A stretch of 64,000 bases of DNA, from NCBI RefSeq assembly GCF_902364365.1, contig NZ_CABJDN010000006.1, positions 124,001 through 188,000 of the forward strand. Reading direction: 5' to 3'. This document shows, piece after piece, positions 24,704-47,896 of this stretch. Numbering within the stretch: the stretch's first letter is position 1; each line of letters begins with the position of its first letter. Source of the stretch: Bacteroides intestinalis (GTDB taxonomy: Bacteria > Bacteroidota > Bacteroidia > Bacteroidales > Bacteroidaceae). The position numbers were made by a program, and so were the translations under genes. The notes under the pieces are model-generated. The model was given only the letters and a program-made list of their open reading frames with translations. It was not told where the DNA came from and ran no database searches.

Positions 24704-24724
24704 TGAAATAAAATCAATATACTT

Positions 24725-26206: not shown

Positions 26207-26215
26207 AACAGAGAT

Positions 26216-28236: not shown

Positions 28237-28244
28237 TAATCATT

Positions 28245-29522: not shown

Positions 29523-29538
29523 AGATAGATAAAAGAGA

Positions 29539-29572
29539 ATACGTATGGGGAGCTTCCTCATACGTATTTTTC
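29539..29572. terminator. Terminator of the nrf operon
   Basis: AATACGTATG and CATACGTATT form a perfect 10-bp stem with an 11-nt loop followed by T-rich sequence. It overlaps the stop codon of the convergent Crp gene at 29558, so it can serve both directions. Confidence 0.8.
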
Positions 29573-30247: not shown

Positions 30248-30268
30248 TATATTAGGTAGTTGGTTGTA

Positions 30269-30276
30269 CAAAGATA
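30269..30276 (-). promoter_or_regulatory. -7 element of the distal Crp/Fnr gene
   Basis: Minus-strand TATCTTTG lies 21 nt upstream of the ATG at 30247, with an ACTTTTA -33-like stretch ~19 nt further up. It shows that the two Crp genes need not be one transcript. Confidence 0.55.
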
Positions 30277-30292
30277 CGATGAAAAAGTAGAA

Positions 30293-30985: not shown

Positions 30986-31003
30986 AAACTCTCCATCTTT
31001 GCA

Positions 31004-31078
31004 CAAAGATAATGCAAATCGAATGCAGAACTTTCATGCTTGCATGAAAAAGTTATGCTGAGATGCAGCTTATCTTCT
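31004..31078. promoter_or_regulatory. Divergent crp/hcp promoter region with shared operator
   Basis: TTTCATGC-TT-GCATGAAA (31032-31049) is a perfect 8+2+8 inverted repeat. The crp -7 element TATCTTTG (minus, 31004-31011) starts 29.5 nt from its centre. The hcp -7 candidate TATCTTCT (plus, 31071-31078) starts 30.5 nt on the other side. Both distances match class II activation and the nrf geometry. Confidence 0.6.
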
Positions 31079-32906: not shown

Positions 32907-34637
32907 TTACAACTTCCACCCCAATGTCTTTTCCTGTATATTCCATAGCTTGGCGTATAGCCCCTTATTATCGAGTAGTTCCTGATGCTTACCTTGTTCG
33001 GCAATGCATCCTTCCTCCAATACTATGATGTTATCTGCATTCTTGATCGTCTTCAGGCGATGGGCAATCACGATTACCGTACGTCCTGCAATTAATGTAT
33101 TGATGGCACGCTGTACTTCCACTTCATTTTCCGGATCGAGTGAAGCCGTTGCTTCATCCAGAAGTACTACGGGAGCTTCTTTCAATATAGCACGTGCGAT
33201 GGAAATGCGCTGCTTCTCTCCACCGGACAAGGTACAACCGCCTTCACCGACCTGCGTATCATACCCTTTGGGCAATCGCATGATGAAATCGTGGCAACAT
33301 GCTTTGCGGGCCGCTGCTTCTATTTCTTCGTCCGTAGCGTCGGTTTTGCCGAAACGGATATTGTTGCGAATGGTATCTTGAAACAGATACACATTCTGGA
33401 ATACCATTGAGATATGACTCATCAATGATTCCGGTTCCAGGGTTTTCATATCTACTCCATTAAATAAAACCTGTCCCTGTTGCGGATCGTAAAAACGTGC
33501 GCATAGTTTCAGCATGGTACTTTTTCCACTCCCCGAAGGACCTACCAGAGCGGTGAGTGTATTCTTACGCAGTGTTACCGATACATCATGCAGTACCCAT
33601 TTTTTCTGGTAGCCGAATGATACGTGATTGAAAGTAATATCGCCACTTTCCGGGGCCTCTTTACTCCCTTGCATTTCCGGTTCGTTCATCAGCGTTAGTA
33701 TACGCCCTCCGGCAATGGAGAAATATCGGAATTCTGCAAAGTTGGTCAGTGCCGAAGTCAGCGGATCGAAGACGCGGGAACCGACAACGAGGAACATAAC
33801 GAACGTGAGCAGAGACAAATCTCCTCCTATCAACAAGTACGTACCGCAAAGTATCATCAACGTCAGACCTGCCCGTATCAACGTTACAGAAAGCAGTATG
33901 AACGGGCCGAGCAATGCTTCCTGGCGGATACAGGCACGGCGCAGTTCGGCAAAGGCATTCTTCAGACGGACAAACTTGTCGCCCAGCAGATTATATGCTT
34001 TCATTACCCGTATTCCCTGCAAGTACTCTTCCAGGCGATTGCCTGCATTGATTTTGGCAGTAATCTGTTTGCCGCTCAGTTTGTATTGCAGGTAAGTACT
34101 GCCCAGCAATATTCCCACGGCAAGTGGCAGGGCTATAAACATGGCAACGGCCATTTGCCAATCTATCCATAGCAAGCCGAGGAAGGCAAGTACAGGCATC
34201 ACCAGTGCACCCATCAATTGGGGTAGGTGATGCGAAATACCTGTTTCCGCCATGGTAAAGTCTGTAATCAGCATGGACGAAAGATCACCCGGATCGCGGC
34301 GTGACAGGAAACCCAATGAGAGTTTCCGCAAATGCTCTGCCAGGCTGACACGTCCTGCGGCACTCATTTCATAGGCACCCCGGAAATTGGCGCGGTAGGA
34401 AGCCCTTTCTGCCAATGCCATGACAAATACATACACTACAAGCAGGATAAAAATAGTCCAGAGCCGTTGAGTGTCCAACGGCGTTCCGCTGCCATCGAAA
34501 GCACGGAATATCACGTTGATTGCTTCGATAGACAGGCAGAATGGGACAATATTTACCAGGTTGGCAAGCATCGTGTAGCCCACAGGTTTGCGAAGGCGTT
34601 CGGTGTGCCCTATCGTAATATTTTCTATTGCATTCAT
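32907..34637 (-). CDS. ABC half-transporter, permease-ATPase fusion (second gene)
   Basis: 576 residues. Six-helix permease domain (~15-310), then ATPase with Walker A LVGPSGSGKSTM, the signature LSGGEKQR and Walker B VVLLDEATASLDPENE, and the switch His in IVIAHRL. Exporter-fold (type IV) half-transporter, expected to dimerise with its neighbour, whose stop overlaps this start by 4 nt (ATGA). Substrate not deducible from sequence. The pair belongs to COG1132-like transporters, which include exporters and the exporter-fold siderophore importers IrtAB/YbtPQ. Confidence 0.9.
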   Translation of the reverse strand: MNAIENITIGHTERLRKPVGYTMLANLVNIVPFCLSIEAINVIFRAFDGSGTPLDTQRLWTIFILLVVYVFVMALAERASYRANFRGAYEMSAAGRVSLAEHLRKLSLGFLSRRDPGDLSSMLITDFTMAETGISHHLPQLMGALVMPVLAFLGLLWIDWQMAVAMFIALPLAVGILLGSTYLQYKLSGKQITAKINAGNRLEEYLQGIRVMKAYNLLGDKFVRLKNAFAELRRACIRQEALLGPFILLSVTLIRAGLTLMILCGTYLLIGGDLSLLTFVMFLVVGSRVFDPLTSALTNFAEFRYFSIAGGRILTLMNEPEMQGSKEAPESGDITFNHVSFGYQKKWVLHDVSVTLRKNTLTALVGPSGSGKSTMLKLCARFYDPQQGQVLFNGVDMKTLEPESLMSHISMVFQNVYLFQDTIRNNIRFGKTDATDEEIEAAARKACCHDFIMRLPKGYDTQVGEGGCTLSGGEKQRISIARAILKEAPVVLLDEATASLDPENEVEVQRAINTLIAGRTVIVIAHRLKTIKNADNIIVLEEGCIAEQGKHQELLDNKGLYAKLWNIQEKTLGWKL

Positions 34638-36454
34638 TCTTTTACCTCCTTCTTACTGTTTAGTTCCCAGCGGAACGCATCCGTATAAGCGTCCCACATA
34701 TTCTTATATAATCCTTCCGTTTTACTTAATATCTCGTGTTTCCCATGCTGTACGAGCTTTCCTTCGTTCAGTACGATGATTTGCTGTGCCGAAATGATGG
34801 ACGAGAGGCGGTGTGCAATGATGATAACCGTCTTATTCTGGATCAGATGTTGCAAAGCTTGCTGCATCTTATATTCATTTTCGGGATCGGCAAAAGCGGT
34901 CGCTTCGTCCAGCACCAGGATAGGAGCATTTTTCAGGATGGCCCTTGCCACACAGACTCGTTGCGACTCACCACCGGAAAGGTAGACGCCCTCATCTCCG
35001 ATGCGGGTTTCATAACCTTGCGGAAGGCTTTCTATAAACTCATGGCACTGTGCGGCTTTTGCGGCTGCTATCACTTCCTCACGTCCTGCACTGGAGTTTC
35101 CTACCCGGATATTCTCATAGAGGGTATCAAAGAAAAGGAAGCTATCCTGAAAAACAAAGGAAACAATGTTCATCAACTTTTCAGTGGGAATATCTTTGAT
35201 GTTGACTCCTCCGATCCGTATTTCGCCTTCCGTTACATCCCAGAAGCGGGGAATCAGATTGGCTACTGTAGACTTTCCTGAACCTGAGGGGCCTACGAGT
35301 GCCGTAATTTCACCTTGACGTGCTGTGAAGGTGATGTCGCGCAGCGCTTCGGTACGAGTTGTCTCCGCTTTATTCTCATAAGCGAAACTAACCTTGCGGA
35401 ATTCAATGTCATAACCGGCAGGTACTTGCGGCGTTTGTGCTTCCGGTACGGGCGGTTCGGCAAAGATACGGTCAATGCGTTCTACGCCCTCGTCTATTTC
35501 TCGTGTACCCGATCCGAGGAACATCAGTTTATAAATAGGGGAGGCTACTCCGGGGCCCATAATAATAAAGAATAGATAGACAGCAGCTAATGCCAGATTT
35601 TGTGGCTCATGACTCAGTAATAGTAGACCTATCGGCAGAATAAACGTAATGAGTGAGTTCAGTAATATGGTGAAGACCACCATACCGGGTTCGTATGTAT
35701 CGCATACTTTCAGTGCATATTCTTTATACGCCTCAATCTCACTATTGAAACGGCGGAATGACCGGACGCTTTGACCGAAGATTTTCACGACCGGCATGCC
35801 GCGTACATATTGTACGGCTGAGGCGCTCATTCGTTCCTGTGTATCAAAGTAGATTTTAGTAAACTCCTGTGCTTTTTTCCCGAAGAAGTTGGCAAATTGT
35901 AATCCTATACTCAATGCAATACAGAATAGACAGACCGCAGCCATCCAGCCATTCAGGGAGAAGAAGATGATAAACATCAGAGTGACCGTAGCCAATACAT
36001 TCACAAGGTCGGGGATGGTATGGGCAATGAAGTTCTCAATCTTTTCTACATTCTGTTCCATAATTTTCTTGATGCTTCCGGTAGATGTACCGTTCAGGTA
36101 TCCTAACGATAAGCGTCCGATGTGTTCCGATAACTTGATACGTAATCCGTATAGGATACGGAAAGCTGCTACATGTGAGGCCATCAGTGCCGCATAAAGT
36201 AGCAATAATCCTCCGATCAGTCCGAAGAAGGCAAACCATCCCCAGTATATCAGTATCTCGCTATCTGTTTTTTCTAAATCACTGGCGTGAAGCAGTAATT
36301 CCTGCAATACGCGGTATACCGACCAGTAGGGAACCAACATGCACGTAGCGCTTCCTGCCGACAAGATACCAGCCAGGATCAGCAGCCCTTTCCGCTCGCC
36401 TGCAATTTCAAACAGGCGGGCGATTCCTCTTTTCTTTTTCAGTTTCTCTTTCAT
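34634..36454 (-). CDS. ABC half-transporter, permease-ATPase fusion (first gene)
   Basis: 606 residues. Six-helix permease (~25-320) with ATPase motifs LVGPSGSGKSTV, LSGGESQR and ILVLDEATAFADPENE. The ATAFADPENE variant of Walker B is, from memory, characteristic of IrtAB/YbtPQ-like transporters linked to iron-siderophore handling, which would fit the iron theme of the adjacent region; this is inference. Translationally coupled to the second half-transporter. The gene lies 59 nt downstream of tetR, but a terminator intervenes, so expression probably depends on readthrough or a promoter in the short gap. Confidence 0.9.
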   Translation of the reverse strand: MKEKLKKKRGIARLFEIAGERKGLLILAGILSAGSATCMLVPYWSVYRVLQELLLHASDLEKTDSEILIYWGWFAFFGLIGGLLLLYAALMASHVAAFRILYGLRIKLSEHIGRLSLGYLNGTSTGSIKKIMEQNVEKIENFIAHTIPDLVNVLATVTLMFIIFFSLNGWMAAVCLFCIALSIGLQFANFFGKKAQEFTKIYFDTQERMSASAVQYVRGMPVVKIFGQSVRSFRRFNSEIEAYKEYALKVCDTYEPGMVVFTILLNSLITFILPIGLLLLSHEPQNLALAAVYLFFIIMGPGVASPIYKLMFLGSGTREIDEGVERIDRIFAEPPVPEAQTPQVPAGYDIEFRKVSFAYENKAETTRTEALRDITFTARQGEITALVGPSGSGKSTVANLIPRFWDVTEGEIRIGGVNIKDIPTEKLMNIVSFVFQDSFLFFDTLYENIRVGNSSAGREEVIAAAKAAQCHEFIESLPQGYETRIGDEGVYLSGGESQRVCVARAILKNAPILVLDEATAFADPENEYKMQQALQHLIQNKTVIIIAHRLSSIISAQQIIVLNEGKLVQHGKHEILSKTEGLYKNMWDAYTDAFRWELNSKKEVKE

Positions 36455-36497: not shown

Positions 36498-36535
36498 CAA
36501 AAAAAGAGAGAGCTTATATTTTCATAAGCTCTCTC
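36498..36535 (-). terminator. Terminator overlapping the tetR stop codon
   Basis: GAGAGAGCTTAT and ATAAGCTCTCTC pair perfectly around a 6-nt loop that contains the tetR stop codon (TAA at 36514-36516). The minus strand continues with seven T. It separates tetR from the ABC genes. Confidence 0.8.
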
Positions 36536-37125
36536 CAACCAGTTACTTCGAATGTGATGTATTCTGTGACTATCTGTTCCAAATCTTCTATCCCGACTCG
36601 GTGCATGATCAATTCCTCAAACATGGTGAACATCCATGCCGTGTGCAGGTGGATAGAAAAGTCGGTTACATTGATATTCATTTGCGGATGTTTCTCTTTC
36701 ATATCTCTGAAGTACTCTTTCACGAGTGATGTGGAGCGTTCGGTAAAGTTCTCCTTGAAGTTTTCCAGTGAAGAACCTTGTGCATGGAAAAATAGCAATA
36801 CCAACAATTTGCGATGTTTTTGTATCAATGTCATGTACTCTTCTATCACATATCGTAGGTATTCTGTGGAATACATCTCCATGATATCTGCTCCATAACG
36901 ACCGTGATGTTCGTGCAGCATCCTTTCGAATGCACTGATTACAGGCCGTACCACCGTACAGAAAATATCATCCTTATTTTTGAAATAGTTATAGATATTG
37001 CTCAACCCTACCTGTGCTTCTTGCGCAATTTCACGCATGGAAGCCTTTGGAAAGCCGTTTTCGAGGAATACCTTTTCGGCAGCTTTCAAAATTTCTTTTT
37101 GTATGTCATCTTTAGGGTATTGCAT
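36514..37125 (-). CDS. TetR/AcrR-family transcriptional regulator
   Basis: 203 residues from the ATG at 37125; the longer frame starts upstream of the mapped -7 element, so it is not used. N-terminal HTH (~7-55): KEILKAAEKVFLENGFPKASMREIAQEAQVGLSNIYNYFKNKDDIF, a textbook TetR domain. The remaining helices form an unassigned ligand pocket. It is divergent from the small membrane protein gene at 37291. The intergenic region holds two inverted copies of TGGGTATT, one for each direction. Likely controls the ABC pair and perhaps the divergent genes. Confidence 0.9.
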   Translation of the reverse strand: MQYPKDDIQKEILKAAEKVFLENGFPKASMREIAQEAQVGLSNIYNYFKNKDDIFCTVVRPVISAFERMLHEHHGRYGADIMEMYSTEYLRYVIEEYMTLIQKHRKLLVLLFFHAQGSSLENFKENFTERSTSLVKEYFRDMKEKHPQMNINVTDFSIHLHTAWMFTMFEELIMHRVGIEDLEQIVTEYITFEVTGWRELMKI

Positions 37126-37143
37126 AAGTTTTATTTCTCGACT

Positions 37144-37181
37144 GCAAAGTAGGGGAGAATCCGCGTTTTTTGAAATACCCA
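37144..37181 (-). promoter_or_regulatory. tetR promoter with TGGGTATT box
   Basis: On the minus strand TGGGTATT (37174-37181) is followed after exactly 25 nt by TTTGC (37144-37148), the core of the -7 element. The start codon follows 19 nt later, a very short leader. Confidence 0.7.
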
Positions 37182-37225
37182 TTAATGATGGTTTTTTGTT
37201 ATATTTTTATAAAAATCACAATTAT

Positions 37226-37263
37226 TGGGTATTGCCAAGGTCACTGAAAGCATGCAACTTTGC
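37226..37263 (+). promoter_or_regulatory. Small-membrane-protein promoter with TGGGTATT box
   Basis: TGGGTATT (37226-37233), then 25 nt, then TTTGC (37259-37263). Inverted relative to the tetR copy 44 nt away. Confidence 0.7.
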
Positions 37264-37290
37264 GCGTACAATCTAACTATAAACTGCTAT

Positions 37291-37596
37291 ATGGTGAAAC
37301 TAACTAACCACAAAAAGGCAATTGACAGACCTTTAAGTTGTAAGAGATGGGGAATAATATCTATTATTATTCTTTTTGCAGGTAGCTTATCTTTTTTACT
37401 GTACTCTTACTTTTCGCATGATGCTGATAATCCTCAGTGTAACTGTTTGCTATGTATGCTTAATCATGTTCCTGAAGAGGGAGAGTACATTTATAACCGT
37501 TATTTGATATTTATTAGTTTTATCTGGATTGCTGTGATCTTTGCGGCTGTCTTTTTAGTGAATTACTGTTTTGTAAAAAAGAACAAAAAGAAATAG
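37291..37596 (+). CDS. Small two-TM membrane protein with Cys motif
   Basis: 101 residues from the ATG at 37291, which lies just after the mapped -7 element; an upstream in-frame start would precede the promoter. Two TM helices (~22-42 and ~70-93) enclose a short outer loop with NPQCNCLLCMLNH, four residues suited to metal or heme binding (C-x1-C-x2-C plus His). A basic tail KKNKKK sits in the cytoplasm. No family recognised. It shares its promoter box with tetR, the porin and flavodoxin, so it is probably part of the same response. Confidence 0.75.
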   Translation: MVKLTNHKKAIDRPLSCKRWGIISIIILFAGSLSFLLYSYFSHDADNPQCNCLLCMLNHVPEEGEYIYNRYLIFISFIWIAVIFAAVFLVNYCFVKKNKKK

Positions 37597-37649
37597 TGTT
37601 CGTTTAAGTACCTACATGTTATTATTTTTAATAACACAATACTCATATT

Positions 37650-37687
37650 TGGGTATTGCCCGCCTTTTTAACTCCCTCTACCTTTGC
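37650..37687 (+). promoter_or_regulatory. Porin-operon promoter with TGGGTATT box
   Basis: TGGGTATT (37650-37657), 25 nt, then TTTGC (37683-37687) as part of the full -7 element TACCTTTG. Start codon 24 nt downstream. Confidence 0.75.
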
Positions 37688-37710
37688 GCCAACAAAATTT
37701 AAGATAAAAG

Positions 37711-39081
37711 ATGAGAAAATTAACTTGCTTATTCGCCTTAGGTTTCTTGCTTTTTAACAATACTTTACGGGCTAATGAACCTGAAAAAGTAACCTCAACA
37801 GAAGAGGTATCTGAAACTACGGCAAAGAAAGAGAGAATAAAACAGGTAACAAAAGATGACGACTACGAAAAGTTCCGTTTCGGTGGATACGGAGAAATGG
37901 TAGCAAAGTTTATGAACTACGGAACGAATCGTTTCTATGGTGGGGTAGATAACAGTGATCACCGCAATACCATTGCAATTCCTCGTTTTGTGTTGGCTTT
38001 TGACTACAAGTTTAATTCCAAGTGGATACTGGGTGCTGAAATTGAGTTTGAAGCAGGAGGTGTAGGTATTGAAACAGAACTTGAGAATTCAGAAAACGGT
38101 GAGTATGAAACAGAAATGGAAAAGGGTGGAGAAGTCGCTCTTGAGCAGTTTCACATTACCCGTCTGATACATTCGGCTTTCAACGTTCGTGCCGGTCATT
38201 TGATTGTACCTATGGGATTGACCAATGCACACCATGAGCCTATCAACTTCTTCGGAACATCTCGTCCTGAGGGTGAAACCACAATTATTCCTTCTACCTG
38301 GCATGAGACAGGATTGGAATTCTTCGGCTCTTTTGGTAAAGGATATGCGCGCTTTGATTATCAGGCAATGATTGTTGCCGGCTTGAATGCTGATGGATTC
38401 GGTCGCGATAACTGGGTAGCCGGTGGTAAGCAGGGACTCTTTGAACAAGATAACTTTACTTCACCTGCTTATGTAGCACGTCTGGACTATAAAGGGGTAC
38501 CGGGACTGCGTGTAGGTGCTGCTTTTTACTATTGTAATGACGTGACAGCCAATGCAGATAAGAATTATAAGTATAGCAGCGTAGGCCGCTCATCAGTGAA
38601 AATCTACTCTGCCGATGCACAGTATAAAAATAAATATGTTACCGCTCGTGGTAATATCATTTATGGTGATTTAGAGAATTCTTCCAAGATTAGCAAGGTT
38701 ACTCTTTCTAATAACTCCAATTATTATCACGGTGCTATGCGTAATGTAGCAAAGAATGCCCTGTGCTATGGCTTGGAGGCTGGTCTTAACCTGAGTGCTT
38801 TCTTCTCGCAGAAGAAATGTCCGGTTATTTATCCTTATGCCCGTTATGAATACTACAACCCGCAGGAAGAGGCAGAAGGTTCTGCTACAATGGAGAAACG
38901 CTGTCAGGTAAGCAAATGGACGGCAGGAGTTAACTGGTTTGCATTGCCGAATCTGGTTGTGAAGGCCGATTACACTACCCGTCATATTGGTACGAACAAA
39001 GTATTTGGATCGACTAAATATAACAATGAAAATGAATTTGCTATCGGCATAGCTTATGTCGGTTGGTTTACCAAGAGATAG
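37711..39081 (+). CDS. Outer-membrane porin
   Basis: 456 residues with a signal peptide (1-21). A short acidic/Lys-rich segment is followed from ~55 by a beta-barrel starting EKFRFGGYGEMVAKFMNYG, with IPRFVLAFDYKFNSKWILGAEIEFE and LIVPMGLTNAHHEPINFFG and the closing strand EFAIGIAYVGWFTKR, resembling the phosphate-selective or DcaP-like porin group. First gene of a seven-gene run (porin, imelysin, di-heme oxidoreductase, porin, cytochrome, RidA, CcsBA). Controlled by the TGGGTATT promoter. Substrate unknown; the neighbours point to an iron species. Confidence 0.85.
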   Translation: MRKLTCLFALGFLLFNNTLRANEPEKVTSTEEVSETTAKKERIKQVTKDDDYEKFRFGGYGEMVAKFMNYGTNRFYGGVDNSDHRNTIAIPRFVLAFDYKFNSKWILGAEIEFEAGGVGIETELENSENGEYETEMEKGGEVALEQFHITRLIHSAFNVRAGHLIVPMGLTNAHHEPINFFGTSRPEGETTIIPSTWHETGLEFFGSFGKGYARFDYQAMIVAGLNADGFGRDNWVAGGKQGLFEQDNFTSPAYVARLDYKGVPGLRVGAAFYYCNDVTANADKNYKYSSVGRSSVKIYSADAQYKNKYVTARGNIIYGDLENSSKISKVTLSNNSNYYHGAMRNVAKNALCYGLEAGLNLSAFFSQKKCPVIYPYARYEYYNPQEEAEGSATMEKRCQVSKWTAGVNWFALPNLVVKADYTTRHIGTNKVFGSTKYNNENEFAIGIAYVGWFTKR

Positions 39082-39121
39082 TTCAAATAGGTATTTATAA
39101 TTAATTTAATGTTTAAGTAAT

Positions 39122-40240
39122 ATGAAAAAGTTTTTTTATTTGTCGGCTCTTTCATTGGGCATGATGTGTTCCATTACGGCTTGTAGTGATGATGACACTA
39201 CGACTATAGACGCTAAAAATCTTGACTATACGGCAGAGAATGCAAGTAGTTGGGGGAATTACATGCGAGTAGTTGCACAATTGTTGGTGAATGATGCTAC
39301 TGCTCTTTATGATGACTGGGCGGTTAAATACAATGAAGGTGGAAGCTATGCAGATTTCTTTAAGAATCAAGATGCTTTGACAAGTGTTGAGCAGTTGATT
39401 GACGGCTGTGTAGACATTGCCAATGAAGTAGGTACTGCCAAAATTGGTGACCCTTACGATCTTTTCATACATAACAATGAAGAAAAGGCTTTGTATGCTG
39501 TAGAGTCATGGTATAGCTGGCATTCTCGTGAAGACTATCGTAACAATATCTATTCTATTCGTAATGCTTATTACGGAACACGTACAGGAGCTATTAGCGA
39601 GTCATCTCTCTCAAAAGCAGTAGCTGCAGTAAATGCTAATCTTGATACTGAAGTGAAAAAAGCGATTGATGATGCAGCAGCAGCAATTTGGGCTATCCCG
39701 AGTCCTTTCCGTAACAATATCAATAGTCCGGAAGCAGTAAGTGCTATGGAAGCTTGTGCCACTTTAGAGGGAGTACTCAAGGGAAGTTTGAAGAATTGTA
39801 TCGAAAGTATTGATAAAACAGTGTTGGCCGAAGTCGTAAGAAATTATGTGGATGTAGTTGTATTACCTACTTATTCTGATTTGAAAGCGGGAAATCAGGC
39901 TCTTTTCGATGCTGTTGAAACATTCCGTACTTCTCCCAGCAATGCTAACTTCAAGGCTTGTGCCACAGCATGGCTTGCTGCTCGTACACCGTGGGAAACC
40001 AGTGAGGCATTCCTTTTTGGTCCGGTTGCCGACAAAGGTCTTGACCCCAATATGGATAGCTGGCCACTCGATCAGGATGGTATCGTACAGATTCTGACTT
40101 CCGGTAACTATTCAGACTTGAACTGGGATGGTGACTATGATGAAGAAGATGATAAAATTGCCGGTGCACAAGCTTTGCGTGGTTACCACACTTTGGAATA
40201 TCTGATCTTCAAAGATGGTGAAGCTCGTACCATTCAGTAA
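39122..40240 (+). CDS. Imelysin-family lipoprotein
   Basis: 372 residues with lipobox SITAC (Cys 21) followed by SDDDTTT. Four-helix-bundle type sequence with the family GxHxxE motif as GYHTLEYLIF near the C-terminus (354-363). Imelysins (peptidase M75, IcmP/EfeO-related) are periplasmic or outer-membrane proteins tied to iron uptake; the peptidase label is historical. Lies 41 nt after the porin and before a di-heme oxidoreductase; the imelysin plus di-heme pair also occurs in iron-regulated clusters of Proteobacteria. Probable role: binding of iron at the envelope. Confidence 0.88.
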   Translation: MKKFFYLSALSLGMMCSITACSDDDTTTIDAKNLDYTAENASSWGNYMRVVAQLLVNDATALYDDWAVKYNEGGSYADFFKNQDALTSVEQLIDGCVDIANEVGTAKIGDPYDLFIHNNEEKALYAVESWYSWHSREDYRNNIYSIRNAYYGTRTGAISESSLSKAVAAVNANLDTEVKKAIDDAAAAIWAIPSPFRNNINSPEAVSAMEACATLEGVLKGSLKNCIESIDKTVLAEVVRNYVDVVVLPTYSDLKAGNQALFDAVETFRTSPSNANFKACATAWLAARTPWETSEAFLFGPVADKGLDPNMDSWPLDQDGIVQILTSGNYSDLNWDGDYDEEDDKIAGAQALRGYHTLEYLIFKDGEARTIQ

Positions 40241-40266
40241 GATTTTTACTTGTTAGAAATAAGATT

Positions 40267-40309
40267 TTGCGGAAACAGCGGGATAATGAATATTCTGTTG
40301 CTTCCGCAA
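40267..40309. repeat. Intergenic hairpin between imelysin and di-heme genes
   Basis: TTGCGGAA (40267-40274) and TTCCGCAA (40302-40309) form a perfect stem, extended by CA/TG after one mismatch. No T-run follows, so it may be a processing or partial-attenuation site within the operon, not a full terminator. Confidence 0.55.
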
Positions 40310-40368
40310 CATCTGCGTTAAAAAGATAAATGTTAGTTACGTATTTTGCAATAATAATTCAATAACGA

Positions 40369-41802
40369 ATGAATGGCTTATTAAAATACTCATTTCCAAT
40401 CTGTTTTTCGCTTCTGGCATTGTTTGCCTGCGAAAATGATGGAATTGATGTGGATGATATAGAAGTACCTGCCGGCTTTGCCCTCTCTGCCGGTACTGCT
40501 ACCAACTTCCTGACTTCCTCTTATGCTTATGACAGGTCTGCTGACTGGATAACAGGGGCATACGATAAACGTTTCACCCGTGGTGACAAATTGTATGATG
40601 ATATCCGCACCAGTAGTAATGGAATAGGTGGAGGACTGGGACCGGTTTATGCCGGTTATTCTTGTGGTAGCTGTCACCGAAATGCCGGACGTACGCAACC
40701 TACTTTGTGGAGTGAAGGCGGTTCCGGTAGCTCCGGCTTTTCGTCTATGTTGGTTTATATTAGTCGTAAGAATGGAGCTTTCTTTCAGGATTATGGACGT
40801 GTGCTTCATGATCAGGCTATTTATGGTGTGAAGCCCGAGGGAAAACTGAAAGTGGAATATACCTATGAGACTTTCCAGTTCCCTGATGGTGAGACGTATG
40901 AACTCTGCAAACCCAATTACTCCATTTATGAATGGTATGCGGACAGCATCAAACCCGAGGACCTGTTCTGTACAGTGCGTATTCCTCTGCGCCACGTAGG
41001 TATGGGACAGATGATGGCGCTCGATCCCACTGAAATTGAAGCTTTGGCTGCTAAAAGCAATTATCCGGAATACGGTATCAGTGGCCGTTGCAACTATATC
41101 TCCGAGAGAGGAGTGAGAAGTTTAGGCTTGTCCGGCAATAAAGCACAGCATGCTGACCTGACAGTGGAACTTGGTTTCTCCAGCGATATGGGAGTTACGA
41201 ACAGCCGCTATCCCGAAGAAATCTGCGAAGGACAGGCACAAGTAAATCAAGGCAGTATGATGGGACTTTCTTATGCCCAGTTGGATGTATCTACGGAAGA
41301 AATGGAGAATGTAGATCTCTACATGCAGAGCCTTAGTGTTCCGGCACGCCGTAATGTGAATAATGAACAAGTGATCAGGGGTGAGCAGAATTTTTATAAG
41401 GCGAAGTGCCATCTCTGTCATGTAACTACCTTGCACACAAAGCCACGTGGTTCTGTACTATTGAATGGAACCCGCCTTCCCTGGCTGGGTAGTCAGACAA
41501 TTCATCCATATTCGGACTTTCTGCTTCATGATATGGGCTCTGAAATTATGGGCGTAGGACTGAATGATAACTATGTAAGCGGTTTGGCCCGTGGTAACGA
41601 ATGGCGTACGACTCCGCTTTGGGGTATCGGATTGCAGGAAACTGTGAACGGTCATACTTACTTCCTGCATGATGGACGCGCCCGCAACTATGTTGAGGCT
41701 ATCATGTGGCACGGTGGTGAAGGTGAAGCATCGAAGAACCTTTTCAAAAAGATGAGTAAAGAAGATCGTGATGCTTTGATCGCATTCCTGAAATCATTAT
41801 AA
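40369..41802 (+). CDS. Di-heme c-type oxidoreductase lipoprotein (DHOR/DUF1111 family)
   Basis: 477 residues with lipid Cys 21 (LALFAC). Two c-type heme motifs: CGSCH at 99-103 and CHLCH at 347-351. Family landmarks include AGYSCGSCHRNAGRT, GRCNYISERGVRSLGLSGNKAQHADL, TTPLWGIGLQETVNGHTYFLHDGRARN and the final EDRDALIAFLKSL. This is the DHOR family once called thiol oxidoreductase, related to di-heme peroxidases. It may change the oxidation state of iron held by the imelysin partner; that is inference. Hemes would be attached by the CcsBA encoded at the end of the run. Confidence 0.9.
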   Translation: MNGLLKYSFPICFSLLALFACENDGIDVDDIEVPAGFALSAGTATNFLTSSYAYDRSADWITGAYDKRFTRGDKLYDDIRTSSNGIGGGLGPVYAGYSCGSCHRNAGRTQPTLWSEGGSGSSGFSSMLVYISRKNGAFFQDYGRVLHDQAIYGVKPEGKLKVEYTYETFQFPDGETYELCKPNYSIYEWYADSIKPEDLFCTVRIPLRHVGMGQMMALDPTEIEALAAKSNYPEYGISGRCNYISERGVRSLGLSGNKAQHADLTVELGFSSDMGVTNSRYPEEICEGQAQVNQGSMMGLSYAQLDVSTEEMENVDLYMQSLSVPARRNVNNEQVIRGEQNFYKAKCHLCHVTTLHTKPRGSVLLNGTRLPWLGSQTIHPYSDFLLHDMGSEIMGVGLNDNYVSGLARGNEWRTTPLWGIGLQETVNGHTYFLHDGRARNYVEAIMWHGGEGEASKNLFKKMSKEDRDALIAFLKSL

Positions 41803-41847
41803 AACAAATAACGAACAATAAAACCAATAAGTATTATACAAGCAATT

Positions 41848-43059
41848 ATGAAAAAAATAATTTTAATGGTTGTAATGGCTGCCCTTTCATTGGCTGCTAT
41901 GGCACAGCATGAAGAAGATACAGAAAACGGTGTAGTGTCACTTGCCGGAAGAGAGGGATTTACGATAGAAACTAAGAAGGGAGACTTTGTATTCAAACCC
42001 TATCTGTTGGTACAGACTTGTGCAAATTTCAATTGGTATGATGATGAAGGTCTGGATAAGGCATATAATCAGGATAATGTAGCTAATTCCGGTTTCTCAA
42101 TTCCCTATGCTGTATTGGGTTTCACCGGTAAAGCTTTTGGTAAAGTAGCCTTTAATCTTTCTATCAATGCGGCTGCCAGTGGGGGAGCATTGCTTCAACA
42201 AGCATGGTTCGATGTACAACTTAAAAAACAGTTTGCCGTGCGTGTCGGTAAATTCAAAACACCTTTCTCGCATGCTTATCTGACGACGTTGGGCGAAACA
42301 TTGTTGCCGCAGTTGCCGGTATCATTGACTTCTGCCGTCATTCTGCCTTATTCTTTGAATGCGGTAACGCCTAACATTGGTACCGGCTTCGATCTCGGTG
42401 TTGAAATTCATGGATTGGTAGCTGATAAATTTGGCTATGAAGTAGGTTTATTTAATGGCACCGGTTCTTCTGTAAATACAGCAACAAAAACTCTGAGTGA
42501 TGATTGGCATATTCCTTCTTTACTGTATGCGGGGCGCTTTACTTATATGCCTAAAGGTGTGATGCCGTCCACCCAAGGTAATCCCAATCGTTTGAATGAA
42601 GATAAGATCATGTTCGGTGTATCGGCTTCAATCAATGTGGAAAGTGAGAATGAAAGTACCAATGATACCCGTGTGGGAGTGGAATTTGCCATGTTAAAGA
42701 ACAAACTGTATTTGGGTGCCGAAGCATATTATATGAATGTAGGTTTTACGGATCGCCAGAAGATCAATGAGAGCTACAATTACCTGGGTGGTTATGTACA
42801 GGGCGGCTACTTTATTGCTCCCCGTTTGCAGGCTGCCTTGCGTTATGACTTCTTTAACCGTAACGGTACTGGCGATGACGGATTTTTGAATATGCCGGCT
42901 GTGGGTATGAATTATTTCTTTAAGGGTTGTAACCTGAAACTCCAGGCTATGTACCAGTATATTGCCCGTACGGGTCACGATACACAGCTCGACCGCGATA
43001 ATGATAATTTAGGTCTGGCTACTCATTCTGCAACAGTAATGCTGCAATATACTTTCTAA
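41848..43059 (+). CDS. Second outer-membrane porin (OprP-like)
   Basis: 403 residues with signal peptide MKKIILMVVMAALSLAAMAQ. Barrel strands begin DFVFKPYLLVQTCANFNWYDDEG, with VAFNLSINAAASGGALLQQAWFDVQLKKQFAVRVGKFKTPFSHAYL, the central motif of phosphate-selective porin O/P-like proteins. It ends THSATVMLQYTF with a C-terminal Phe. Unrelated in detail to the first porin of the run, so the system uses two different channels. 45 nt after the di-heme gene and 18 nt before the cytochrome lipoprotein. Confidence 0.85.
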   Translation: MKKIILMVVMAALSLAAMAQHEEDTENGVVSLAGREGFTIETKKGDFVFKPYLLVQTCANFNWYDDEGLDKAYNQDNVANSGFSIPYAVLGFTGKAFGKVAFNLSINAAASGGALLQQAWFDVQLKKQFAVRVGKFKTPFSHAYLTTLGETLLPQLPVSLTSAVILPYSLNAVTPNIGTGFDLGVEIHGLVADKFGYEVGLFNGTGSSVNTATKTLSDDWHIPSLLYAGRFTYMPKGVMPSTQGNPNRLNEDKIMFGVSASINVESENESTNDTRVGVEFAMLKNKLYLGAEAYYMNVGFTDRQKINESYNYLGGYVQGGYFIAPRLQAALRYDFFNRNGTGDDGFLNMPAVGMNYFFKGCNLKLQAMYQYIARTGHDTQLDRDNDNLGLATHSATVMLQYTF

Positions 43060-43077
43060 AAAACAAAGAGAGTAGTT

Positions 43078-43812
43078 ATGGAGAAATGTATATTATTCTT
43101 TGCTGCTATCTGGATGACACTCTGCTTCTGTTCATGTGATGATGGAAGAATCTATGAGAAGGAGGTCAATATACAGCGTGGTGGACGTGCTATGAAGTTG
43201 ACCGGTCGTTTCAGTGGTATCAGCAATTGGACGGACGATTATAGTGTCGTTGTGGCAGGCTTCAATGATAAAAGTGAATACGCCGTTATAACGAAATCAC
43301 TACCAGTCAATGTAGCCGACGGAACAGATATCGTTATGACACTGGGAGGTATCAGTGATGATGTGAAATCACTCAAATTGTGTGTTATCAGTCGTTTGCG
43401 CGAATGCATAGTCGAATTTAAGACGATGGAAGATGAAGAACTCACAGCTATCACAGATACCATATTAATGGATGTGGGAACACTGGACGTGGGTATGTTC
43501 AGTTCTATCCAGTCACAGGTTTTCGATAAAAGATGTGTGGCGTGTCATGGGCAGACCGGTTCTGCATCGGGTAATTTATTTCTGACGGAGGGTAAGAGCT
43601 ATAATGCGTTGGTCAACCAGCCGGCGCATAAGAATAGTGATATACTATTGGTGAAGCCCGGCAGTGCGGAAGAGAGTTTTCTACATTTGGTCTTGAACAG
43701 GGCTGGTGATACGAGTATGAACCATACCGATATGCTGTCAGAAGATGAGCAACCCTTATTGAAACTGATAGATAATTGGATAAACGAAGGAATTTTTTTG
43801 AATAACGAGTAA
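43078..43812 (+). CDS. Mono-heme cytochrome c-type lipoprotein
   Basis: 244 residues with lipobox CFCSC (Cys 20), then DDGRIYE. The middle (~30-130) is a beta domain. A cytochrome-like segment follows: CVACH at 153-157 within SSIQSQVFDKRCVACHGQTGSASGNLFL, the form seen in planctomycete-type cytochrome domains, with a later Met-containing loop (TSMNHTDMLSEDEQPLL) that may give the second axial ligand. Possible electron carrier for the di-heme oxidoreductase. Same run, 12 nt before the RidA-like gene. Confidence 0.85.
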   Translation: MEKCILFFAAIWMTLCFCSCDDGRIYEKEVNIQRGGRAMKLTGRFSGISNWTDDYSVVVAGFNDKSEYAVITKSLPVNVADGTDIVMTLGGISDDVKSLKLCVISRLRECIVEFKTMEDEELTAITDTILMDVGTLDVGMFSSIQSQVFDKRCVACHGQTGSASGNLFLTEGKSYNALVNQPAHKNSDILLVKPGSAEESFLHLVLNRAGDTSMNHTDMLSEDEQPLLKLIDNWINEGIFLNNE

Positions 43813-43824
43813 ACGATATTGGAA

Positions 43825-44979
43825 ATGAACAACAAAAAACAACAAACCAACCAATCAGAGAATACATTAACCGAGATTTTTAAATATGAAGTAAAAGAAG
43901 GTGTTTCAGAGTTTCATGTAATGATTCACTCAATCCGGCCGGAAGATACTTATGAGGAACAATTAAATGCAGTAGTCAATGCCTATGATGATTTGCTTAC
44001 GGGTGAACTAAAAGGTGCCATGGCTGTGTTTAAACGTTATTTCCTGAGTGATACCGCCAATCAGGCTGACCTCCTGCTGGCTATCACTACCGAAAGTTCC
44101 GACTGTGCTCTTTCCGTGGTAGAGCAACCCCCTTTGGATGGGACGAAAATAGCTTTGTGGGCTTATTTACAGACCAATGTGCAGACACAAGTGTTGCACA
44201 ACGGACTATTTGAAGTAAAGCACAATGCGTATCGCCACCTGTGGGGAGGCAGTGCTTTCAATCGTGCTGCTAATTCTGAATACCAGACCCGTTTGTTGCT
44301 GAATGACTACGTGATGCAACTTATGGAACAAGGATGTAAATTGGCGGATAACTGTATTCGTACCTGGTTCTTCGTACAGAATGTAGATGTGAATTATGCC
44401 GGTGTGGTAAAGGCACGTAATGAGGTTTTTGTTACTCAGAATCTGACGGAAAAGACACACTATATTGCCAGTACAGGTATCGGCGGACGTCATGCTGATC
44501 CCAAAGTATTGGTACAAATGGATACCTATGCTGTGGCAGGCTTAAAGCCGGAACAGATACACTTCCTTTATGCTCCTACGCATCTGAATCCTACTTATGA
44601 GTATGGTGTCAGCTTTGAACGCGGAACGTATGTCGATTACGGTGACCGGCGTCAAGTGTTTATTTCAGGTACAGCAAGTATCAACAATAAAGGGGAAGTG
44701 GTATACCCCGGTGACATCCGCAGGCAGACGGAACGGATGTGGGAAAATGTAGAAGCCTTGCTGAAAGAGGCTGAGTGTACATTTGATGATTTGGGACATA
44801 TGATTGTTTACCTGCGTGACATTGCAGACTATGCAGTTGTGAAGAGTATGTATGACAAGCGTTTTCCGGATACTCCTAAAGTTTTTGTACATGCGCCTGT
44901 ATGTCGTCCCGGATGGTTGATCGAAATGGAATGTATGGGAGTTAAGGCTTTGAAGAATAAGGAATATGCGCCTTTTTAA
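43825..44979 (+). CDS. RidA/YjgF-superfamily protein, long form
   Basis: 384 residues from the ATG at 43825; an upstream TTG is not needed. The C-terminal ~120 residues (RQVFISGTASINNKGEVVYPGDIRRQTERMWENVEALLKEA, then VYLRDIADYAVVKSMYDKRFPDTPKVFVHAPVCRPGWLIEME) are a RidA fold with the usual Arg/Glu-bearing region. The N-terminal ~250 residues are not recognised but carry a degenerate second RidA-like unit. No signal peptide, so cytoplasmic, unlike its neighbours. It overlaps the next gene by 14 nt, hence tight coupling to CcsBA. Its role in an envelope redox run is unexplained. Confidence 0.8.
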   Translation: MNNKKQQTNQSENTLTEIFKYEVKEGVSEFHVMIHSIRPEDTYEEQLNAVVNAYDDLLTGELKGAMAVFKRYFLSDTANQADLLLAITTESSDCALSVVEQPPLDGTKIALWAYLQTNVQTQVLHNGLFEVKHNAYRHLWGGSAFNRAANSEYQTRLLLNDYVMQLMEQGCKLADNCIRTWFFVQNVDVNYAGVVKARNEVFVTQNLTEKTHYIASTGIGGRHADPKVLVQMDTYAVAGLKPEQIHFLYAPTHLNPTYEYGVSFERGTYVDYGDRRQVFISGTASINNKGEVVYPGDIRRQTERMWENVEALLKEAECTFDDLGHMIVYLRDIADYAVVKSMYDKRFPDTPKVFVHAPVCRPGWLIEMECMGVKALKNKEYAPF

Positions 44980-47026
44980 TTTGAAGAAAAGTCTCATCTT
45001 TTTATATATCTGTCTGGTGGCCTTGCTCGCTGTGGTGACCTTTGTGGAGCATGTACACGGAACAGAGTTTGTAGAAAAGTATGTTTATCATACAGTTTGG
45101 TTTTGTTGTTTGTGGGGAGTACTTGCCGCATTGGCAGTTGCCGTGTTGGTTAAGCGGCAGTTGTGGCGGCATCTCCCGACATTGTTGTTGCATGGCTCCT
45201 TCCTCGTTATCTTGGTGGGAGCCATGATTACATTTTCATGCAGCAAAAAAGGATATATGCATCTCACTGTAGGTACTGAGGTGGGAACTTTCATAGACCA
45301 AGACAGTAAGCGGGTAATCGAATTACCATTCACATTGTGTCTGGACAGTTTCCGAGTGGAGTATTATCCGGGGACGGAAGCTCCGGCAGATTATGTCAGT
45401 TATATTCGGGATGCGGAACCAGTTTCTATGAATCGTATCCTCTCCCGTCAGGGATATCGCTTTTACCAGTCTTCTTTTGATGATGATAAGGAGGGGAGCT
45501 GGTTGTCGGTGAATTATGATCCGTGGGGAATAGGGATTACGTATGCAGGATATATTTTGCTGGGTATTTCCATGTTGTGGATGCTTGTCAGTCATAGTGG
45601 GGAATTCCGTAGATTGCTCAGGCATCCGTTGCTTCGAAAAGGGGGAATGTTTATGTGGTTGTTCATGGCTACGGGAATGGTGGTGCAAGCAGAAAACAGA
45701 AGTCTTCCGGCACTTGCACTCAGACAGGCGGATAGTCTGGCTTCCAAACAAGTGATTTATCATGATCGCGTAGTACCTTTTAATACCCTTGCACGAGACT
45801 TTGTATTGAAACTGACCGGGAAATCTTCTTATGGTGGCATGACACCCGAACAGGTTGTCGGAGGTTGGTTACTCCGTCCGGAGGTTTGGCAGAATGAACC
45901 GATGATTTATATAAAGAGTGCGGAACTTCGTCATTTACTCCAATTACCTTCTTCCTATGCTCGTCTTACTGATTTGTTTGATGGGCAAAACTATCGCTTG
46001 CAGGAATTTTGGAAAGGAGGACAAAAGCCACACATGAAAATGACTTCGCTGGAAAAGGCTATCATGGAAACGGACGAAAAGGTAGGATTGATACTGATGT
46101 TACGGAGTGGAACACTTATCCGTCCTTTACCGGAAGATGGGAGTATAAAACCACTGTCTGACGTAAAGGTGCAGGCTGAAATATTGTACAATCGCATTCC
46201 ATTCAGCAAACTGTTGTTCATGTTCAATCTGACTGTAGGGATGCTGGCATTTTTCTATTTACTTTATTGCAGCATGCATCGTTCGGCAGGTAAGGCATGG
46301 AGCGTTTTTACAGTTACACTTTATGCGGCATTTCTTTTTCAACTCTTTGGCTACTGTTTGCGGTGGTATATTGGCGGACGTATTCCGTTGAGTAATGGAT
46401 ATGAAACCATGCAGTTTATGGCACTGTGTACACTTCTGCTTGCATGCATATTCCGGCGTCGCTTCTCTTTTACGTTGCCTTTTGGGTTACTTATTTCGGG
46501 TTTTGCCTTGTTGGTAGCTTATCTTGGGCAGAACAATCCTCAAATTACTCCTCTGATGCCTGTGTTGCTTTCTCCTTGGCTAAGTATCCATGTTTCTCTG
46601 ATTATGGTATCTTATGCAATGTTTGCCTTTATGATGCTAAATGGATTACTCGCATTCTGCATAGGAGGCTGGCGAAAAAAGGCAATCGATTCGGAGATTC
46701 AGGAACAGCGTAAGGTCCGTGTGGAGCAATTGATGCTTTTCAGTCGGTTGATGCTCTATCCGGCAGTATTTTGTCTGGGGACGGGGATTTTTATTGGTGC
46801 TGTGTGGGCGAACGTTTCATGGGGGCGCTATTGGGCCTGGGACCCGAAAGAAGTCTGGGCTTTGATCACCTTTTTAATCTATGGTGCGGCATTCCACGGA
46901 CAATCGCTTGCCGTCTTTCGGCAACCCCGGTTCTTTCATACTTATATGGTGTTGGCTTTCCTTACGGTGCTGATGACTTACTTCGGAGTAAATTATCTGC
47001 TGGGCGGTATGCATAGCTATGCCTGA
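44966..47026 (+). CDS. ccsBA: CcsBA, fused ResB-CcsA cytochrome c synthase
   Basis: 686 residues. The N-terminal ResB half (~1-400) has TM helices, the periplasmic domain and SYIRDAEPVSMNRILSRQGYRFYQSSFDDD. The C-terminal CcsA half has about eight TM helices with the WWD motif WGRYWAWDPKEVWAL at 619-633 and conserved His positions (SIHVSLIMVSYAMFAF, AAFHGQ). It is a complete one-protein system II heme lyase. It presumably matures the di-heme oxidoreductase and the cytochrome lipoprotein of this run, separate from the split ResB/CcsA in the nrf operon. Last gene before a terminator. Confidence 0.92.
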   Translation: MRLFNLKKSLIFLYICLVALLAVVTFVEHVHGTEFVEKYVYHTVWFCCLWGVLAALAVAVLVKRQLWRHLPTLLLHGSFLVILVGAMITFSCSKKGYMHLTVGTEVGTFIDQDSKRVIELPFTLCLDSFRVEYYPGTEAPADYVSYIRDAEPVSMNRILSRQGYRFYQSSFDDDKEGSWLSVNYDPWGIGITYAGYILLGISMLWMLVSHSGEFRRLLRHPLLRKGGMFMWLFMATGMVVQAENRSLPALALRQADSLASKQVIYHDRVVPFNTLARDFVLKLTGKSSYGGMTPEQVVGGWLLRPEVWQNEPMIYIKSAELRHLLQLPSSYARLTDLFDGQNYRLQEFWKGGQKPHMKMTSLEKAIMETDEKVGLILMLRSGTLIRPLPEDGSIKPLSDVKVQAEILYNRIPFSKLLFMFNLTVGMLAFFYLLYCSMHRSAGKAWSVFTVTLYAAFLFQLFGYCLRWYIGGRIPLSNGYETMQFMALCTLLLACIFRRRFSFTLPFGLLISGFALLVAYLGQNNPQITPLMPVLLSPWLSIHVSLIMVSYAMFAFMMLNGLLAFCIGGWRKKAIDSEIQEQRKVRVEQLMLFSRLMLYPAVFCLGTGIFIGAVWANVSWGRYWAWDPKEVWALITFLIYGAAFHGQSLAVFRQPRFFHTYMVLAFLTVLMTYFGVNYLLGGMHSYA

Positions 47027-47055
47027 TTATCTTTCTATTTTCGGATGATATAATA

Positions 47056-47084
47056 AAAATGCCTACGGAATCCGCAGGCATTTT
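47056..47084. terminator. Terminator after ccsBA
   Basis: AAAATGCCT and AGGCATTTT pair perfectly around an 11-nt loop that itself contains GGAATCC. Flanked by A- and T-rich sequence on both strands. The stretch 47085-47267 has no gene. Confidence 0.85.
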
Positions 47085-47267
47085 CTACAAAAACAACTAA
47101 CTAAACACATGCAAAGTTAATCAAGCGCACTGGACTTTTCTTTCACAGTACCGTTCGCATTGCGCGCATATATCATAACCTAACATTGCCTTGAGTATAA
47201 AATCTTCTCTTTCAATTCTACCGGGTTAATGTCAGATATTGTCATAAGGCTATGGAGTAAGAGAAAA

Positions 47268-47774
47268 TTATGCCAAGTGATTTTTTATGTCGTTCACCCA
47301 AGCGTCGATACGTTTTTCCGTCTTATCACTTTCATTGATGTCATCAAGAGCGAGTCCGACAAACATACCGTCGATGACGGCGATAGAGGAGGAGAAAGAA
47401 TAATCTTTTGCAGATACCTTACCAACGATGGTACAACCGGAATCCTTGATATCTTCGTATATGATACCCATGCCATCGCAGAATGTATCGCAATAAGACT
47501 CAGCATCACCACAACCGAACAGGGCAATTGTTTTTTCTTTCAGGTCTGATTCTTTCAACACTTTAACGCCATCATACCAGTCATCCTGCAATTCACCGTC
47601 ACCCCAGGTGGAAGTTCCTAAAAGAAGAACTTCGTATTCTTTTACCATGTCGGCATTCATTTTGCTGACATCGATTACATCAGATGCGGGAACACCAAGT
47701 TTAGAAGCGATTGTTTCGGCAATGCCTTGTGTAGTTCCGGTTGAGGAACCATAAAATATTCCTATTTTCTTCAT
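47268..47774 (-). CDS. fldA: Flavodoxin
   Basis: 168 residues, the long-chain flavodoxin size. FMN phosphate loop FYGSSTGTTQGIA at 8-20, FMN-stacking region STWGDGELQDDWYDG, and GCGDAESYCDTFCDGMGIIYE as expected for FldA. Carries electrons in place of ferredoxin, classically induced when iron is short. It has the TGGGTATT-N25-TTTGC promoter shared with tetR, the small membrane protein and the porin operon, which is the main reason for reading that box as an iron-limitation signal. Confidence 0.95.
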   Translation of the reverse strand: MKKIGIFYGSSTGTTQGIAETIASKLGVPASDVIDVSKMNADMVKEYEVLLLGTSTWGDGELQDDWYDGVKVLKESDLKEKTIALFGCGDAESYCDTFCDGMGIIYEDIKDSGCTIVGKVSAKDYSFSSSIAVIDGMFVGLALDDINESDKTEKRIDAWVNDIKNHLA

Positions 47775-47802
47775 ACTATAAAATGGTTTAATTTGTACGG
47801 TT

Positions 47803-47840
47803 GCAAAGTAACGGCATCAGAGGGGGTTATGAAATACCCA
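47803..47840 (-). promoter_or_regulatory. Flavodoxin promoter with TGGGTATT box
   Basis: On the minus strand TGGGTATT (47833-47840), 25 nt, then TTTGC (47803-47807) preceded by TTAC. Start codon 29 nt downstream. Confidence 0.75.
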
Positions 47841-47896
47841 CAAATAATGAAATGTTTCTTTGTAGCTAACCACTTATAGGTATGATGGAGTGGGGG

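Follow-up and report, generated by a model that had tools for sequence, protein, structure and literature searches.

A 20-bp dyad at a fixed distance from the -7 element as a candidate operator of an iron-starvation regulon in Bacteroides

The closest described counterpart of the system considered here is the PG1236-CdhR (PG1237) operon of Porphyromonas gingivalis, which is induced in low iron and has the same make-up, a hemerythrin gene paired with the gene of a regulator carrying a LuxR-type helix-turn-helix (HTH) domain. Accessible papers cite CdhR as activating the transcription of hmuYR, and one, which refers to the same work, calls it a repressor; both the low-iron induction and the activator role at hmuYR are taken from these sources. 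The same hemerythrin-regulator operon is found in Bacteroides thetaiotaomicron (BT0519-20), where it is low-iron induced, and in fused form in Prevotella intermedia (PMC10434189). According to the accessible text of that study, the flavodoxin, tetR-ABC, porin/M75/CcsA and gpmA loci of B. thetaiotaomicron rise 15- to 675-fold in low iron (flavodoxin 325.7-fold; porin/peptidase M75/CcsA locus 62.7- to 323.7-fold), the same gene types are induced in P. gingivalis and P. intermedia, and the low-iron loci overlap genes induced in mouse colitis. Its evidence consists of expression and gene order: the accessible main text does not use the terms 'motif', 'promoter' or 'binding site' (0 occurrences) and describes knowledge of the regulatory mechanism as scarce and the mechanism as unclear. 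Iron sensing in Bacteroides is still poorly understood, and the accessible data put the low-iron induction of these loci at up to several hundred fold. No binding site is named in the accessible CdhR literature. We propose here an operator, a phasing for it and a list of targets across the genus, starting from a 64,000-nt stretch of Bacteroides intestinalis DNA (the window; contig NZ_CABJDN010000006.1, positions 124,001 to 188,000) in which four promoters share a box; as judged from sequence, this box forms the promoter-side arm of an inverted repeat of 20 bp, AATACCTA-N4-TRGGTATT (the dyad).

The composite pattern TGGGTATTKC-N23-TTTGC is present in exactly four copies in the window when no mismatch is allowed (37144-37181, minus strand; 37226-37263, plus; 37650-37687, plus; 47803-47840, minus), and in all four the gap between the box and the TTTGC of the -7 element measures 25 nt, as the first-pass annotation had reported. 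At the porin operon (plus strand), the far half AATACTCA (37638-37645; dyad score 25.2), the exact promoter-side half TGGGTATT (37650-37657) and TTTGC (37683-37687, within the -7 element TACCTTTGC) form the clear arrangement AATACTCA-TATT-TGGGTATT, whose right half abuts a TATTG that is itself 20 nt from TAnnTTTG. The promoter of a small membrane protein (plus strand) also carries a clear dyad, AATCACAA-TTAT-TGGGTATT, with the far half at 37214-37221 (dyad score 25.4), the exact promoter-side half at 37226-37233 and TTTGC at 37259-37263. Dyads are weak at tetR and flavodoxin (both minus strand), where the exact promoter-side half TGGGTATT (37174-37181 and 47833-47840, respectively) is accompanied by the far halves AACCATCA (37186-37193; dyad score 10.5) and TTTCATTA (47845-47852; dyad score 9.8), and TTTGC is located at 37144-37148 and 47803-47807. 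The -7 elements of the three promoters other than that of the porin operon are imperfect (CTACTTTG, CAACTTTG and TTACTTTG). A rough check bore out the earlier statement that other promoters of the window lack the box at this offset: among 31 TAnnTTTG sites followed closely by the start of an open reading frame (ORF) of at least 100 aa, one, the porin's, had the box (at least 6 of 8 letters at the offset).

With up to 3 mismatches, the box-TTTGC pattern was found 10 times in the window, compared with a mean of 4.53 in shuffled sequences, and 1 of 100 shuffles reached as many. These shuffle figures apply to up to 3 mismatches; for the zero-mismatch case, hand arithmetic (about 14.5 fixed letters, 128 kb) put the chance of even one exact copy well under 0.01. 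The box alone is ordinary (74 copies with up to 1 mismatch, 66 expected); the significance lies in its combination with the phasing. In the nearest relative genome examined (G001, 6.9 Mb), TGGGTATT-N25-TTTG occurs five times and its reversed control 0 times; the five copies comprise the same four promoters and that of a TonB-dependent receptor. The latter site is a perfect mirror, AATACCCA-TCAG-TGGGTATT, which identifies the box as half of a dyad. The 8-mer of the first-pass annotation is real and is the promoter-side arm of a larger, 20-bp element.

The dyad and its phasing were then followed through 149 genomes of the same genus. With up to 1 mismatch, the dyad followed by TTTG after 25 nt was counted 303 times and its reversed control 17 times among the matches listed (hand sums, with a few palindromes counted on both strands), and at least 120 of the 149 genomes carry one or more such sites. 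When the gap was allowed to vary between 15 and 35 nt, 62 exact dyads were found near TTTGC, 59 at 25 nt and 3 at 22 nt (reversed control, 0), which bears out the fixed phasing claimed at the outset. Of 30 loci examined upstream of tetR orthologues, 27 have the half-site 25 nt from TTTG (with 2 mismatches in one case) and one has it at 26 nt; the boxed loci reach down to 50% TetR identity. Upstream of fldA, a half with at least 6 of 8 letters was kept at 25 nt in all 34 distinct sequences, of which 23 come from loci fetched for cdhR. As a control, 989 other genes in loci L170-L260 were surveyed: a half with at least 7 of 8 letters was present at 25 nt in 25 cases and at each of the other spacings from 18 to 32 nt in 0-4. 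In the same survey, the hemerythrin-cdhR promoters scored 50/70 at 6 or more letters and 15/70 at 7 or more, both figures being held down by a degenerate right half at cdhR, and fldA scored 16/21 because some starts were called too far upstream (the 34/34 count used a better start rule). A logo was built from 317 distinct sites of up to 3 mismatches, whose loci had mostly been chosen on the strength of a match; it is circular at the pattern letters, so that only the pattern-free columns are independent. Among these, conservation was seen for A at -2 and -1 (before the dyad), G at 20 (after the dyad), T at 41 and C at 44 (in the -7 region) and C at 49 (after TTTG). At four loci (L049, L054, L096 and L309), dyads lie between TTTG/TTTT elements on opposite strands, so that one site could serve two divergent promoters.

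The genes behind the dyad were read from 101 site rows (some loci twice), 93 of which had a downstream ORF by the rule used, a few of them doubtful, and 8 of which had none. The 60 regions read were hand-picked with a preference for well-kept sites and for genomes lacking TetR, and product names rest on Pfam for 20 chosen proteins and on inspection by eye for the rest. The set comprises flavodoxin, TetR (tetR-ABC), the porin/imelysin/di-haem/CcsBA operon, TonB receptors, carboxypeptidase-regulatory outer-membrane proteins, PepSY_TM proteins, gpmA, enolase, glucosamine-6-phosphate deaminase, cation efflux, a DUF6686 protein, leucine-rich lipoproteins, an AMP-binding enzyme, a peptidase M6, an esterase, a hemerythrin-PAS protein and the hemerythrin gene followed by the LuxR-HTH regulator; FeoAB stands behind a dyad with 2 mismatches in a genome of another family (L319). 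For several of the products (enolase, the peptidase, the esterase and the leucine-rich proteins) a role in iron metabolism is not evident, and in the accessible part of the published low-iron table (PMC10434189) neither cation efflux nor DUF6686 was found. The gpmA promoters (L067, L084, L090 and L111) have the box at 25 nt and a poorer far half, and may link iron to glycolysis, as may enolase (L061 and L344). At L079 (G133), a hemerythrin and PAS protein stands behind a perfect dyad at 25 nt and is perhaps a second member of the sensing circuit.

As far as the published B. thetaiotaomicron data are accessible, the make-up of BT2473-82 equals that of the window's porin operon. In a genome taken to be B. 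faecis (G002), the dyad is present at genes laid out like BT0503-04 (one at 25 nt, one at 24 nt), the TetR gene BT0507 and BT0519; in B. fragilis and B. xylanisolvens, it is present at BT0519-like and BT0523-like genes, and all three species have the half-site at fldA. The link to the B. thetaiotaomicron fold changes was made through kin, product names and gene order, not through sequence or locus tag. By this analogy of product and order with loci of known induction, the boxed genes probably constitute an iron-starvation regulon. The iron limitation suggested by the first-pass annotation is thus the best reading, and neither of the outcomes that would speak against a common regulon (evenly scattered matches, no co-regulation) was seen in the testable data, which are without transcriptomes of this species.

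The candidate binder is the CdhR-type regulator of the hemerythrin operon, which was found in at least 131 of the 149 genomes. Its gene lies directly downstream of, or is fused to, a hemerythrin gene (Pfam Hemerythrin, GerE); the pair is located outside the window, with the regulator at C1:3232578-3233192 in G001. Two sets of loci (L126-L175 and L181-L260, mostly Bacteroidaceae) overlap in genomes and were hence pooled to 109 distinct hemerythrin-cdhR upstream sequences, 5 of 80 named loci having been dropped for lack of a hemerythrin start. The dyad at 25 nt was present with at most 3 mismatches in its 20 scored letters in 103 of them and with at most 4 in 107; among 15 spacings compared, 25 nt alone gave the best score in 98, shared it with another spacing in 5 and was outscored in 6. 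The dyad at this promoter spans Bacteroides, Phocaeicola, Mediterranea, Odoribacter and one Tannerella record, and four cdhR loci of one further family have the right half only, at 25 nt.

The regulator (Pfam GerE, 6.4e-18) had no receiver domain matched by Pfam. Its AlphaFold2 model (mean predicted local distance difference test 82, predicted template modelling score 0.58) shows a receiver and a NarL-type HTH domain, and Foldseek matched it to NarL, LiaR, VraR and VpsT with a root-mean-square deviation of about 11-18 A over both domains, so that it matches domain by domain. At the position of the phospho-acceptor (the residue after the third strand), Asn was found in 123 and Ser in 2 of 125 sequences, and Asp in none. 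In the hemerythrin partner, H89, H134, E138, H167, H211 and E215 were conserved in 130 of 130 sequences and D216 in 129 of 130, from loci partly of the same genomes; these residues we take to be the hemerythrin iron ligands. At L174 (G119) and L175 (G129), the receiver is missing and hemerythrin joins directly onto the GerE HTH; L174 has a box at 25 nt. Together, the invariant ligands, the missing phospho-acceptor and these fusions favour a direct signal from hemerythrin to the HTH domain. Further possible fusions of this kind are at least nine open frames of 323-368 aa, spread over eight genomes, in which the HTH alone was matched. The NarL-type site consensus is TACYYMT, arranged as a 7-2-7 pair; the halves of the dyad fit it partly, with a loose seventh letter. 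CdhR most likely binds the dyad.

We regard it as probable that the dyad is the operator of a Bacteroides iron-starvation regulon, bound by a CdhR-type dimer with its hemerythrin partner as iron sensor. A dimer of the NarL/LuxR-HTH class (B. thetaiotaomicron BT0520, P. gingivalis PG1237) would occupy roughly positions -56 to -36, next to the -33 region on its upstream side, contact RNA polymerase from this fixed position and switch on low-iron genes including its own operon. The hemerythrin partner, encoded just upstream of cdhR, would hold CdhR inactive when loaded with iron and release it when iron is scarce. We infer the -56 to -36 numbering, the class-II-like activation and the iron sensing by hemerythrin. 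A single fixed distance just upstream of the -33 region favours activation through contact with RNA polymerase; given the overlap with the -33 element, repression is possible.

Several observations weigh against this proposal. The constancy of the 25-nt gap may partly be a consequence of the overlap with the -33 element, and the presence of the dyad at the cdhR promoter makes that operon a member of the set and is not proof that CdhR is the binder. At tetR and fldA, the far half is poor in many loci, two of the 30 tetR loci have no box (L020 and L021; G081 and G015, the latter presumably B. fragilis), and the fused protein at L175 lacks one. Among the matches listed, 15 genomes that are at least 94% complete have no strict site; 13 of them have the regulator, the dyad of its promoter being degenerate (TTTG at 26 nt in G004 and G027, TTCG in G006), and genomes with only such a degenerate dyad show little sign of a wider regulon. 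G071 has two good (0-mismatch) sites yet no regulator match. Two genomes without a regulator match (G051 and G131, 98-99% complete) have only 2-mismatch sites, which agrees with CdhR as the binder and is too small a number to carry weight. In families other than the window's, 4 of the 19 cdhR loci scored have the dyad, and of 7 scored at greater distance none (0) has it, 7 of 28 and 13 of 20 further-family loci having been left unscored because the expression used matched no HTH in them. A scan across the phylum gave matches in 35 of 198 genomes, most at 2 mismatches, and most of these are probably chance or other palindromes. G319, from another family of the same class, has 7 dyad matches at 25 nt (6 places; L303-L308) at genes without an evident iron role, and no close relative of CdhR was matched there; it may represent a separate, unproved system with a similar palindrome.

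The alternative that survives best, although we hold it improbable, is repression: Fur or a different metalloregulator, loaded with iron, would block the -33 region, and the constant phasing would arise from the overlap of the right half with the -33 element. The low-iron induction of the regulon is in line with it, as is the TATTG abutting the right half at the porin promoter, a place where a repressor can sit, and BT0215, listed as 'transcriptional repressor', is itself 2.7-fold up in low iron in the accessible data (PMC10434189). The essentially invariant spacing (59/62) speaks against it. For Fur in particular, the dyad does not resemble the Fur box; in the accessible text of PMC4222909, a P. 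gingivalis mutant in the Fur orthologue is reported to show no altered known iron homeostasis or storage genes except for a fall in hmuY, with hmuY down to 0.51 and fldA to 0.60, and the iron control of B. fragilis pir1/pir2 is described as FurA-independent (PMC11304471). The dyad is not dealt with in the accessible parts of either paper.

Lower chances are given to another NarL- or AraC-type activator that binds the dyad and also controls cdhR, which we think unlikely. CdhR is a candidate binder, several first-look LuxR-HTH candidates are present in nearly every genome among the matches listed, and G319 shows that similar palindromes can belong elsewhere; against this stand the very uniform conservation of the copy at the cdhR operon and the accessible citations of CdhR as hmuYR activator. 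Binding and autoregulation by the local TetR, with the other boxes as a TetR regulon, were first favoured for the box before tetR, which is present in 28 of 30 tetR loci, and a 20-bp palindrome would suit a TetR dimer. TetR (E<=1e-8) is found in 57 of the 149 genomes versus at least 120 with sites, and it is not the sole binder because at least 63 genomes carry sites without a TetR match. Some of the latter are incomplete; G061, G079, G128 and G147 are single-contig assemblies at 99-100% and have 4, 4, 2 and 3 matches, respectively. With two of the tetR loci unboxed as well, TetR was ruled out as sole binder and is a very doubtful regulator of the set; tetR is better seen as a member of the boxed set than as its regulator. 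Of the shared regulator or alternative sigma factor envisaged in the first-pass annotation, the regulator is the best reading, and a sigma factor of the extracytoplasmic function (ECF) type that reads the box as -35 element is hardly credible: it would account for the fixed distance, and in P. gingivalis both cdhR and hmuYR are said to be under the control of an ECF factor (a title cited in the accessible part of PMC10434189), but it is not favoured because of the dyad symmetry with its conserved upstream half and the ordinary TTTG -7 element, and the 25-nt gap is not a normal -35/-10 spacer. A Crp/Fnr regulator was also considered, two look-alike genes being located at 29558-31006 and the small-membrane-protein site being readable as a 14-bp TTGG-N6-CCAA, and was dropped because the conserved letters run upstream as an 8-4-8 dyad.

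The boxed promoters of the window head the following genes. The TetR-family regulator (36514-37125, minus strand; Pfam TetR_N 1.5e-13, run on 36514-37131), whose ATG lies 18 nt past TTTGC, is 98-100% identical to the TetR proteins of G001, G058, G087 and G043. It is the first gene of a leftward set with two ATP-binding cassette (ABC) transporters of fused membrane and ATPase domains (34634-36454 and 32907-34637, both minus strand), each matching many ABC exporter-type models, the 25 listed all below cut-offs. The small Cys-rich membrane protein (37291-37596, plus strand; no Pfam match) starts 27 nt past TTTGC and has a Cys-rich loop, NPQCNCLLCMLNHVP, and a good dyad of its own. The rightward operon (plus strand) begins with a porin (37711-39081; Porin_O_P 3.9e-05) and continues with an imelysin-like lipoprotein (peptidase M75; 39122-40240; PF09375 6.9e-58), a di-haem oxidoreductase (40369-41802; PF06537 8.8e-63), a second porin (41848-43059; Porin_O_P 2.7e-74), a putative c-type cytochrome lipoprotein (43078-43812; CVACH motif, no Pfam match), a Rid-domain (chorismatase-like) protein (43828-44979; PF01042) and a ResB-CcsA cytochrome c biogenesis protein (44966-47026; PF01578, PF05140). 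Flavodoxin FldA is encoded at 47268-47774 (minus strand; NF006739 2.1e-63, above cut-off). A nitrite/nitrosative cluster (24113-31006 and 31125-32780) adjoins these genes; named by eye from the sequence and without a family search, it comprises NrfH- and NrfA-like cytochromes, two Ccs-like proteins, a porin-like protein, two Crp/Fnr-like regulators and a hybrid-cluster-like protein, and the dyad scan of the window gave no dyad above the score cut-off in it.

CdhR, the hemerythrin operon and the iron stimulon are already known. The dyad, its phasing and the target list were not found in the open-access literature, whose coverage excludes the main CdhR papers, so that an hmuY footprint may exist; a search with the 8-mer gave no Bacteroides paper by title among the matches listed, and for BT0519/BT0520 the stimulon paper PMC10434189 was the only one found. 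An operator defined down to its phasing, together with candidates for the regulator and the sensor, makes the question of mechanism concrete and would let iron regulons be read off genome sequence across the genus.

Compared with NarL/LuxR-HTH regulators (NarL, LiaR, VraR and the atypical VpsT), the CdhR-type proteins have a similar predicted fold, and their proposed palindromic operator can be read as heptamers with a two-base centre. Unlike NarL-type regulators, they lack the phospho-acceptor Asp (125/125), and no histidine kinase is evident, its place being taken by hemerythrin as partner or fused domain. Low-iron induction is shared with Fur and its box; the site differs, and the mode here is probably activation. 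FBXL5 is a mammalian iron sensor with a hemerythrin domain that drives protein degradation; the likeness lies in a hemerythrin di-iron centre as proposed iron gauge, and the difference is that it would here gate a transcription activator. The odds seem to us about even for the broadest form of the proposal, that in Bacteroidaceae and near kin the main iron-starvation switch would be not Fur but a hemerythrin-gated, phosphorylation-free CdhR reading AATACCTA-N4-TRGGTATT at an invariant distance from the -7 element, with the tetR, porin and flavodoxin boxes of the window as its operators and the di-iron centre as an intracellular iron gauge, a bacterial counterpart of FBXL5.

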